Of a stretch of DNA of 64,000 nt, positions 55,216 to 60,300 are shown one piece after another. The notes under the pieces are model-generated. The model saw only the letters and a list, made by a program, of their open reading frames with translations, did no database searches and was not told the origin of the DNA. Each line of letters opens with the position of its first letter. The first letter of the stretch is position 1. Source of the DNA: Xiashengella succiniciproducens (GTDB lineage Bacteria > Bacteroidota > Bacteroidia > Bacteroidales > Marinilabiliaceae); NCBI RefSeq assembly GCF_023674465.1, contig NZ_CP098400.1, positions 3,004,801 to 3,068,800 of the forward strand, written 5' to 3'. Position numbers and translations under genes: made by a program.

Positions 55216-56880
55216 ATGAAAAAAGTTGTTTTCAAAGAGCTTCCAAACAATCAAGCTCAGTTATTCCCTGAAAACCTCTTGGATCGCATACCAGCAGACC
55301 ATCCAGTTCGTCTGGTTGATAAGGTTGTAGATCAACTGGATATCTCTTCTATACTAAATAAATACAAAGGTGGTGGTGCTAGCAGTTTTCATCCAAGAAT
55401 GATGGTTAAAATACTGTTTTACAGCTATTTAAACAACATATTTTCGTGCAGAAAGATTGAAAAGGCTTTACAAGAGAATATTCATTTTATCTGGTTATCA
55501 AAGGGCTGTGTTCCAGACTTTAGAACAATCAATTATTTTAGGAGTACCCGTTTGCAGGGAGAAATTAAGACCATCTTTGCAGAAGTAGTTAGATTACTGC
55601 ATGGTATGGGGTTTGTAAGTCTTCAGGTACAGTATGTTGATGGAACAAAAATAGAAGCTACCTCAAACAGGTACACCTTTGTATGGCGAGGTACAGTTGA
55701 GAAAAACAAAGCAAAACTGGAAGAAAGGATAAGGAGTATTCTTAAAGATATTGATAGTCAAATTAAAGAGGACTCAAAAACTCTCAACAAAGAAGATTTG
55801 CCCCAATCAATAGACTCAGATTTATTAAAAAGCAAAATAGCTGAGCTTAACACCAGGCTTAAGGATACAAATAAGTCCACATCTAAGCAACTAAAGCAAT
55901 TACAGGAGGAACACCTGCCACGGTTGGAGAAATACGAGAAGCAACTTGACACTCTGGGGGATCGCAACAGTTTTAGCAAGACAGACGAGGATGCTACTTT
56001 CATGCGAATGAAAGAAGATCATATGAAGAATGGGCAGTTGAAACCAGCTTATAATCCTCAGATTAGTACAGAGAACCAGATTATTACCCATTACAGTATC
56101 CATCAAACCCCAGGTGATACAAGAACATTAAAGTGTCATCTGGAGGGATTTAAAAACCAATATGGAAGTCATAGCTCTACGGTCGTTGCAGACGCCGGCT
56201 ACGGAAGCGAGGAGAATTATGAATACCTGGAAGCAAATAATATAGAGTACTTTGTCAAGTACAACTACTTCCACAAAGAACAGAAAAGAGCATTTAAAAA
56301 GAATGCATTTCTAAGCCAAAACCTATATTACAACGAACATGAAGATTATTATGTATGCCCGATGGGACAGCATATGACCAATAAAGGTGAAAGAAAAGTG
56401 ACTTCTGAGAATGGGTATGTATCAAAGGTGACACGTTATCAAGCGCAAAACTGTACTGGATGCCCGTTGCGCGGACTTTGTTTTCAAGCTACCGGTAATC
56501 GAATAATAGAGATCAATCACAGGTTAAGGATCCTAAAAAAGAAGGCCAGGGAACAGCTATTAAGTGAACAGGGCCTATATCACAGAAGTAGACGCCCAAT
56601 AGAACCGGAAGCAGTGTTTGGACAAATAAAACACAACAACAAGTTCACCAGATTTACACTGAAAGGCCTTAAGAAAGTTGAAATCGAGTTTGGCCTGATA
56701 GCTATTGCTCATAACTTAAGAAAAATCATAGGCAAAGGTGCGTGTGTTTCAAAAACAGTACTCCAAAATGCAATTTTCTTCTTGTTTGAACCCCTATATG
56801 CAAAAATCCAAAAAGGAATATGGAATTTTCGTAAACATGTTCATCTAAAAATAGAAATCTATTCTTATCAACTTGCTTAA
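55216..56880 (+). CDS. IS1182 family transposase
   Basis: A 554-residue DDE transposase. The N-terminal DUF772-like part runs to about residue 110, and an inserted coiled-coil (about 165-245) splits the catalytic core. Acidic residues expected of the triad are Asp142 in 'YVDGTKIEA', Asp326 in '[13 protein letters not shown]' and Glu463 or Glu465 in '[14 protein letters not shown]'. A cysteine set (Cys381, Cys413, Cys416, Cys422; [14 protein letters not shown]) probably binds zinc. The gene is intact, with no frameshift, so the element may still move. Confidence 0.92.
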
Positions 56881-58205: not shown

Positions 58206-59345
58206 CTACAAGCAGCCCAGTATATCTACTGCCTTTTCAAGTTCATCATTGGGTCTGGCAAAATTGATTCTTATCAGATTTCGCTTCTGCTTGTCATGAA
58301 AAAAGGCACTATAAGGAGCTACTGCAATACCATATTGCTCTAGCAGCATACTTGCAAAATCAGTATCTCTTGCTGTTGACACCTGCGAGTAGTCCAGCAG
58401 TACGAAACAGCCTGCCAGTGAGTTCAGAGCTGTTAAACGAGTCCTTTCAGTTATAGCATTTACAAAATACTCCTTCTTCTTCCTGTAATAAGCAGCCAGT
58501 CCCCCAATCCTGCTCCTGTCAGGCACCATGTGAGTCATCGCTTTTTGCAGGGGAACAAAATGTCCACCGTCTGAGAAATGCAGCACCTTACGTATTTTTT
58601 TCATCATCTCTGCAGGTGCTGCACAAAAGCCTGACTGGACCATTAAACCCATTCCTATATTAAGAGAACTGATAACTATTCCACAATCAGCAAGCTTGGG
58701 AAACATTGCAATACTTTGGTGCATAGCAGTATCATATACCAGGTCTTTGTAAGTCTCGTCACTCACAACAATGATGCGAGTCCCATTGATAAGCCTTTGC
58801 AGTCTTAGCATATCAAGTTCTGACATAACCATACCAGTAGGACTATGTGGAGTATTAATAAGTATCATCCTTGTATTGGCATTGACGGCCAGAGTCAGCT
58901 CATCCCAATCTATATGGAAATCCGGTTCTTTGAGAGTAACATATACAGGATTAGCCCTGCAAAGCTGAATAATGGGCAGATAGTATTCAGCTGCTGGCTC
59001 AAAGATAATGACCTCATCATCCTCGCCCAGGAAGGCAAGCAGACAGGCAAACAGGGCCTGAGTCTGACCATGAGTTATAGTGATTTCTTCAGAAGGATCA
59101 TAGGTTCTCTCGTAATTTGACCTAAGATACATTGCTATCTGTTCTCTAAGCTCAGGAAGCCCATATGGAGGAATAAGAGTCCTGATACTGTCATCATCAA
59201 GTTCTCTGAAAAGCTCTGCAGAGGGCTGATAGGGTCCATCAGACAGATAACTGCCTGCCAGGTCAATACCCCCTATCTTTCTGGCCTTTTCACTCAATGA
59301 CACTACAAATCCGGAATCTCCCTGAAAAAATCTCTGAATACTCAT
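58206..59345 (-). CDS. Class I/II aminotransferase-like protein lacking the PLP lysine
   Basis: A 379-residue fold-type I protein similar to kynurenine/methionine aminotransferases: 'YGLPELREQIAMYL', 'ITITHGQTQALFACLLAF', 'VVSDETYKDLVYD' (Asp196, Tyr199) and a C-terminal 'IRINFARP' (Arg359). But where the family has SxSK-x5-GxRxG, it reads SSLNIGMGLMVQSG: the Schiff-base lysine is Asn229 and the nearby Arg is Gln237. The 'NPHNPTG' motif is also changed to TPHSPTG (Ser168). It is full length with no frameshift, so it looks like a conserved-fold pseudo-enzyme, perhaps binding or regulatory, or an enzyme with altered chemistry. Confidence 0.85.
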   Translation of the reverse strand: MSIQRFFQGDSGFVVSLSEKARKIGGIDLAGSYLSDGPYQPSAELFRELDDDSIRTLIPPYGLPELREQIAMYLRSNYERTYDPSEEITITHGQTQALFACLLAFLGEDDEVIIFEPAAEYYLPIIQLCRANPVYVTLKEPDFHIDWDELTLAVNANTRMILINTPHSPTGMVMSELDMLRLQRLINGTRIIVVSDETYKDLVYDTAMHQSIAMFPKLADCGIVISSLNIGMGLMVQSGFCAAPAEMMKKIRKVLHFSDGGHFVPLQKAMTHMVPDRSRIGGLAAYYRKKKEYFVNAITERTRLTALNSLAGCFVLLDYSQVSTARDTDFASMLLEQYGIAVAPYSAFFHDKQKRNLIRINFARPNDELEKAVDILGCL

Positions 59346-59514
59346 GTCCCAAAATCATTAGCATTAATAAGTACAATATATCCTCATTTTTTATAATACA
59401 GTGTTAAAGTTCAAAACCTTTGTCATAAACAAAAGACTGATAGCTTCATAATTCCAGCTGTTGGTCAAAGAAGTCTTGCATCGTTATAAAAACGGGCATT
59501 TTAGGCCTGCGAAG

Positions 59515-60237
59515 TCAAACAAAAAGTTCCTTCAGTACAGAAAGAGATCTAAGTTTTCCTAGCCCGGGCTGGTGTAGTTCGTAAAACCGGATTACGGCAT
59601 CAAGAAGCTTCCTCCGTGTGTCAAGTCTGGCGGCAATATCCGCCAGACCATCACTGTCAAGATTCAGAATCCTGTGCATTTCAAAACTCAGGTCATTGTC
59701 GAGATAATATATATGTGCCGGCTCACGGCTTACATAACAACCTTCATTTAAATCGAACCATTGATATTCGTCATTGTAATTATTACGAGGCTGAAAACCC
59801 AGAAAACTGGCCAGCCTTAGAAGAAACCAGATATGAAAATTCTCTGCTCCCTTACAATTTGAGTCAAGCAATACCACTGCCTCTTCAATAAAATCGAACA
59901 AAGAAAGGTTAGGACCTTCACTTCGCAACACCCTTACCAACACCTCTGTCAGCAGGAAGGCCTGGGCCCGCAACTTCTGCGAGAAAGGAATATTTACAAG
60001 AGCCCGTCTAAGTTTGAACTCACTGATATGCTGTATCTCCTTCCCCTTGCGATCATAGACCTCCATCTCAAGCAGATTGAGAGGCTGCATAAGAATGATT
60101 TTATCCTTGCGGGACTTCCCAAATGCCCCATTGACCATATAACTCTGCATCCCAAGTTCGGATGTATAGACATGAACAATGGCACTACTCTCTCCGTATC
60201 GTGTATGTGTAAGAACTACCCCTCTGGTTTTTAGCAT
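59515..60237 (-). CDS. recO: DNA repair protein RecO
   Basis: RecO helps load RecA onto single-stranded DNA with RecR. The 240-residue protein has the N-terminal OB-fold start 'MLKTRGVVLTHTRYGESSAIVHVYTSELG' (short motifs RGVVLTHTRYGE and YTSELG) and the helical C-terminal domain. The zinc-binding cysteines of some RecO proteins are absent, as usual in this phylum. I start at the ATG at 60235-60237; an ATG three codons upstream (60246) is also possible. Confidence 0.92.
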   Translation of the reverse strand: MLKTRGVVLTHTRYGESSAIVHVYTSELGMQSYMVNGAFGKSRKDKIILMQPLNLLEMEVYDRKGKEIQHISEFKLRRALVNIPFSQKLRAQAFLLTEVLVRVLRSEGPNLSLFDFIEEAVVLLDSNCKGAENFHIWFLLRLASFLGFQPRNNYNDEYQWFDLNEGCYVSREPAHIYYLDNDLSFEMHRILNLDSDGLADIAARLDTRRKLLDAVIRFYELHQPGLGKLRSLSVLKELFV

Positions 60238-60300
60238 AATCCGCATTACTGTTTTGCGTTGTGGAAATATATAAAATATCAGGTCTATTATTCAATTTTA

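Follow-up and report, generated by a model that had tools for sequence, protein, structure and literature searches.

An aminotransferase homologue without the Schiff-base lysine, usually encoded beside recO in Marinilabiliaceae, is a putative non-catalytic protein

Introduction

Fold-type-I dehydratases with His in the place of the Schiff-base lysine exist, as in ColD. Proteins of the PLP fold that lack this lysine altogether have also been described: in the available part of PMC3794620, the LCB1/SPTLC1 subunit of serine palmitoyltransferase is kept for a non-catalytic role, and the accessible text of PMC12910592 presents Rv3778c of Mycobacterium tuberculosis as likely noncatalytic and possibly still functional. 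The methionine aminotransferases of the kynurenine-aminotransferase clade, according to PMC9309667, work with omega-amidase. Among the matches listed in a search of titles and summaries in PMC, a collection that mostly leaves out subscription papers, there was neither a Lys-less methionine aminotransferase nor a recO-linked aminotransferase. Here we describe such a gene in a 64,000-nucleotide stretch of the Xiashengella succiniciproducens chromosome (the window, meaning the whole stretch), together with its relatives.

The gene and its active site

The frame is intact over 379 residues, as the first-pass annotation of the window had reported.

58206..59345, minus strand: Lys-less aminotransferase homologue, 379 aa; open frame with ATG start, Aminotran_1_2 E 1.1e-40

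The protein scored 140.4 bits against PF00155 (Aminotran_1_2), above the gathering cut-off of 19.7. Its best NCBIfam families are methionine aminotransferases, both well under their cut-offs (286 vs 420 and 247 vs 481 bits); for NF006569 (methionine aminotransferase, YbdL type) the score was 285.8 bits against a curated cut-off of 420, and Ile230 stands where that enzyme has its Schiff-base lysine. Because the nearest curated family names are those of methionine aminotransferases, automatic annotation may assign to these bacteria a transamination that is impossible for this protein by the known mechanism. By sequence, the nearest solved structure is Escherichia coli YbdL (1u08), and an AlphaFold2 model built from a 90-row alignment (mean pLDDT 90.5, pTM 0.90) matched it with Z 51.1, 30% identity and 2.2 Å over 376 residues (Foldseek TM 0.91), so that the class I aminotransferase fold is predicted to be intact. 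The gene is thereby confirmed as a full-length member of this fold without the Schiff-base lysine.

58656..58658, minus strand: Ile230 (ATA), column of the Schiff-base lysine, by pairwise and multiple alignments and codon
58635..58637, minus strand: Gln237 (CAG), K/R column of the GWK/GWR motif, by alignment and codon
58842..58844, minus strand: Ser168 (AGT), replacing the NPTG asparagine, by alignment and codon
58263..58271, minus strand: Arg359 (kept, 47/52 recO-linked rows) to Asn361 (newly fixed, 43/43 ungapped family rows)

In the profile alignment to YbdL the query SSLNIG stands opposite SSFGKT; this places Ile230 in the lysine column, whereas Asn229 (AAT, 58659-58661) pairs with the Gly preceding the lysine of YbdL. 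The earlier claim that the lysine had been replaced therefore holds, with the named position, Asn229, off by one, and the identities that it gave for Ser168, Asp196, Tyr199, Gln237 and Arg359 all agree with alignment and codons. The residue of column 237 is presumably the PLP-phosphate binder corresponding to Arg266 of aspartate aminotransferase, from which we also took over, as an assumption, the PLP roles of the other compared columns. A lysine elsewhere in the chain is ruled out by the pairwise alignment, the multiple alignment and the fold. Lys is present at the column in none of the 57 Lys-less rows of our alignment, the partial row L136 stopping short of it.

Among the 52 Lys-less rows that are linked to recO (see below), Lys230 and a K/R at column 237 are kept in none, Tyr199 in 4 (mostly Phe instead), Tyr57 in 15, Asn168 in 24 and Asp196 in 32; Gly93 is kept in 51, Ser227 in 49 and Arg359 in 47. 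These counts bear on the earlier proposal of a PLP-binding regulator, here taken as a regulator or carrier that holds PLP or PMP without a covalent bond. The window protein does keep Asp196 and Tyr199, and Gly93 and Ser227 are nearly constant, but the losses at Tyr199, Asn168, Asp196 and column 237 weaken the proposal, which we regard as very unlikely. We do not lean on the erosion of PLP-contact columns alone, because it was not significantly stronger than that of the other fixed columns (Mann-Whitney p 0.18, 103 columns). Two very diverged recO-linked Lys-less copies from family f25 (L143 and L199, with SLNIP and SLNLP) have lost Asp196 and Arg359 as well.

The window genome, a single 3.1-Mb contig, holds one such gene, its five further matches being 20-29% identical, and a plasmid search returned 844 records, every one under 60% identity. 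The first-pass annotation had also offered a pseudo-enzyme partner, that is, the inactive half of a heterodimer whose other subunit is an active aminotransferase, on the model of LCB1 and LCB2. This arrangement has a precedent in LCB1, where, in the portion of PMC3794620 available, the lysine and further residues present in LCB2 are missing. It would call for a close active paralogue, yet a second homologue at E ≤ 1e-40 occurred in none of the 71 genomes of the family (the two matches in G081 are pieces at contig ends), and the remaining aminotransferases of the window genome are as distant as stated above; we judge it highly improbable, though a partner of more distant kinship may exist.

Distribution of the Lys-less state

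We searched 71 Marinilabiliaceae genomes for homologues at E ≤ 1e-40. Homologues were found in 47, and the lysine was absent in all 47, its column holding Glu in 41, Gln in 3 and Ile, Thr and His in 1 each; the residue for G081 comes from a fragment at the end of a contig, that for G021 from an identical copy in L036, a Breznakibacter MAG, and that for G002 from a frame some 300 residues long, the remainder lying in another frame. The other 24 genomes gave no homologue at this threshold, some of them being incomplete. The alignment with orthologues that the first-pass annotation had proposed thus finds Lys missing throughout, and close relatives that keep Lys, which it had named as evidence against its reading, were looked for in the family genomes and not found. 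A sequencing error or one-off mutation is ruled out by the same 47 genomes.

Outside the family, Prolixibacter bellariivorans and P. denitrificans carry Pro at the lysine column and Puteibacter caeruleilacunae carries Ser; Prolixibacter and (per NCBI) Puteibacter are placed in Prolixibacteraceae. Our set of 162 distinct homologues comprised 57 without Lys and 105 with it. When a Glu230-type query was run against the whole class, 332 of 395 genomes gave homologues at E ≤ 1e-60; the best 30 of these 332 all had Lys, and in 26 of the 30 an omega-amidase-type gene lay in the short flanks.

The residue that replaces Lys is relevant to the possibility, raised in the first-pass annotation, of an enzyme with different chemistry, in which the pocket would catalyse without the Schiff-base lysine and Glu230 or another residue would serve as the base. 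The prevalence of Glu in the family, Gln at column 237 in 32 of 45 family rows, the retention of Arg359 and the precedent of ColD-type dehydratases with His for Lys are all in keeping with it. The same clade, however, also shows Q, I, T, H, P, S and L beside E at this column, which is unlike a single catalytic side chain; the variability weakens the suggestion, and we think it unlikely.

Selection and phylogeny

Frames are intact in nearly all listed homologue rows. One exception comes from the genus of the window, where the copy of G002 (C204:123760-124880) changes reading frame near residue 272, through either a true frameshift or an assembly error. A second genome of the genus, G001 (91% complete), shares with the window a colinear stretch that runs from the succinate-dehydrogenase-like genes (identified by eye; the largest shows 91% identity) to beyond the P-type ATPase gene. 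At the colinear place not even a fragment of our gene was found at E ≤ 1. A 623-aa pyruvate-kinase-like protein with the pyruvate-kinase barrel (L239:4742-6613) lies there between the VTT-domain gene and recO, at the place of the pseudo-aminotransferase.

We estimated dN/dS, as the first-pass annotation had advised, on 14 close pairs of Lys-less relatives; the window gene, having no relative near enough for this, is in none of them. In the 8 pairs with measurable dS the values were 0.033, 0.063, 0.052, 0.016, 0.042, 0.020, 0.024 and 0.083, three of these being rough since dS exceeds 1; the remaining 6 pairs were saturated. For comparison, the values were 0.023-0.140 for ten measurable pairs with Lys and 0.035-0.104 for five pairs of recO. 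At 50 loci, 790 of 1225 pairs showed higher similarity for the gene than for recO. The window copy itself is among the faster-evolving ones: of 43 family rows, only one is less conserved relative to recO (mean identity 0.376 vs 0.414). The Lys-less group, judged on close pairs of relatives, is thus under purifying selection. Together with the absence of Lys in all 47 family genomes that have the gene, this supports, for the group, the earlier statement that the gene looks selected rather than decayed, the window copy not being among the pairs.

The opposite reading, that of a relic, a long-inactivated gene drifting at least in the lineage of the window, could appeal to the absence of the gene from G001, the two-frame copy of G002, the fast window copy and the varying replacement of Lys. 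Against it stand the near-universal intact frames, the low dN/dS and four newly fixed columns (below), points that come from the relatives and the group and not from the copy in the window alone; a relic seems improbable to us.

In a quick tree of 98 rows, computed with the motif columns left out and marked by long branches and many weak forks, the Lys-less rows of the family grouped together with support 99, and the tree required 5 changes in the Lys state and 7 in recO linkage overall. Constraining 52 Lys-less rows (the 50 recO-linked ones plus L091 and L095, with L054 and L191 left out) to one clade gave an AU p of 0.79 and a likelihood 16.4 log units above that of the free search. The simplest reading is one old loss of Lys in this clade, with separate losses in L054 and L191. 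The latter two, from a Paludibacter MAG and from G159 respectively, are Lys-less, have no recO nearby and fall outside the clade, and their losses are probably separate. Compared with recO linkage, Lys loss yields 1 independent pair on supported branches, so that the association rests on one clade. Four Lys-containing rows close to the Lys-less clade (L166, L177, L196 and L066) carry other active-site changes and are possible intermediates; in L177, which has recO upstream, Arg359 is replaced by Gly.

Genomic neighbourhood

The window gene has recO upstream and a VTT-domain gene downstream.

59515..60246, minus strand: recO, the upstream neighbour; RecO_N E 1.4e-17, RecO_C E 3.2e-8
59346..59514, minus strand: 169-bp spacer separating the gene from recO; neither promoter-like nor terminator-like sites on this strand

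A same-strand recO was found no more than three genes upstream for 52 of the 57 Lys-less rows vs 4 of the 105 Lys-containing rows (L141, L147, L153 and L177). An omega-amidase-type gene (CN_hydrolase family by Pfam, the finer name being our presumption) was a same-strand neighbour at a distance of at most three genes in 0 of the 57 vs 43 of the 105, and a six-frame scan of such neighbours gave 0 for Lys-less and 45 for Lys-containing rows. The five Lys-less rows without recO are L091 and L137, both at contig starts, L095, L054 and L191; in the genome of L095 (G010) recO lies about 60 kb off on the same contig and is oppositely oriented, the arrangement expected after an inversion. Among the 48 family loci, recO is the next upstream gene in 43 of the 46 that have an upstream gene, the next commonest neighbour being an MFS transporter (20/44), and no downstream neighbour exceeds 4/47.

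The median length of the gap that follows recO is 158 bp. By a rough rule of our own, a hairpin with a T run occurs in 3 of 52 gaps. A Bacteroidales-type promoter was found in 4 of 52 vs 0.93 in shuffles, with none in the window. Co-transcription with recO is possible, and the adjacency may also be inherited gene order only.

An omega-amidase-type gene is present somewhere in 61 of the 71 family genomes (E ≤ 1e-30), and is retained there though the family genomes have no Lys-bearing YbdL-type enzyme at E ≤ 1e-40; the idea that the whole omega-amidase step was lost along with the lysine is therefore unsupported. In the window genome this gene lies away from the present locus, at G000:C1:1171945-1172715 (L235:5937-6719). 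Beside it is a near-identical copy (L235:7578-9242) of a 554-aa DDE transposase gene of the window (55216-56880, plus strand), which looks recently inserted because of this second copy and because none was seen in the colinear stretch of G001.

Newly fixed residues and a possible function

In 35 family rows below 85% identity, E176, R181, Q183 and N361 were the only columns conserved to at least 97% there and to at most 35% in 82 active rows. Three of the four lie on one helix of the AlphaFold2 model, which from the fold type would be exposed.

58788..58820, minus strand: helix 176-186 of the model, with E176, R181 and Q183 (45/45 each in family rows)

As a control, 82 overlapping sets of 35 active rows, less diverged than the family rows (mean identity 0.58-0.64 vs 0.48), gave 0 newly fixed columns in each; smaller sets gave none at size 20 and at most 2 at size 15. 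The recO-linked rows outside the family share these residues incompletely (E176 in 3, R181 in 0, Q183 in 3 and N361 in 2 of 7), so the constraints belong to the family and not to the whole clade.

The lysine is lost, yet the gene is kept in relatives, usually beside a DNA-repair gene, and the protein therefore probably has a new, non-enzymatic job. The reading that we favour, with somewhat better than even confidence, is that of an old, selected, non-catalytic pseudo-aminotransferase acting by binding. The protein would belong to an orthologous group of dead aminotransferases derived from the YbdL-type methionine/glutamine aminotransferase of Bacteroidia, in which transamination has presumably been lost. 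With Arg359 kept, Asn361 new and, in many copies, Glu230 and Gln237, the old pocket may bind a carboxylate without catalysing a reaction, and the E176/R181/Q183 helix may contact a partner protein.

From the neighbourhood, RecO is the first candidate for this partner, though a doubtful one, given that recO and the gene are about 60 kb apart in G010 and that G001, of the genus of the window, has no copy of the gene. In the fuller form of this idea, the Arg359/Asn361 pocket would sense an amino or keto acid and the E176-R181-Q183 helix would bind RecO or the partners of RecO; we give this regulatory version little credence. If true, it would tie recombination repair to amino-acid status.

Comparison with known systems

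Like the protein described here, Rv3778c is a Lys-less PLP-fold protein, but it is a relative of cysteine desulfurases, and the available part of its source mentions no recO link (PMC12910592). LCB1 pairs with an active homologue, unlike the window protein, whose family has none at E ≤ 1e-40 in the 71 genomes. Our favoured reading would make this group a clear example from nature of an enzyme that has become a selected non-enzyme, while its sister enzymes in other Bacteroidia are active; given these sisters, the four new fixed residues and the usual DNA-repair neighbour, the new job should be testable in isolates of Prolixibacter and Puteibacter. With YbdL (1u08) and its Bacteroidia counterparts the window protein shares the fold over 376 residues and the pocket Arg359, and it differs from YbdL in having no Schiff-base lysine and a changed K/R237. 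Unlike the YbdL-type enzymes, the Lys-less group has recO, and not an omega-amidase-type gene, as its usual neighbour, and four other columns have become fixed.
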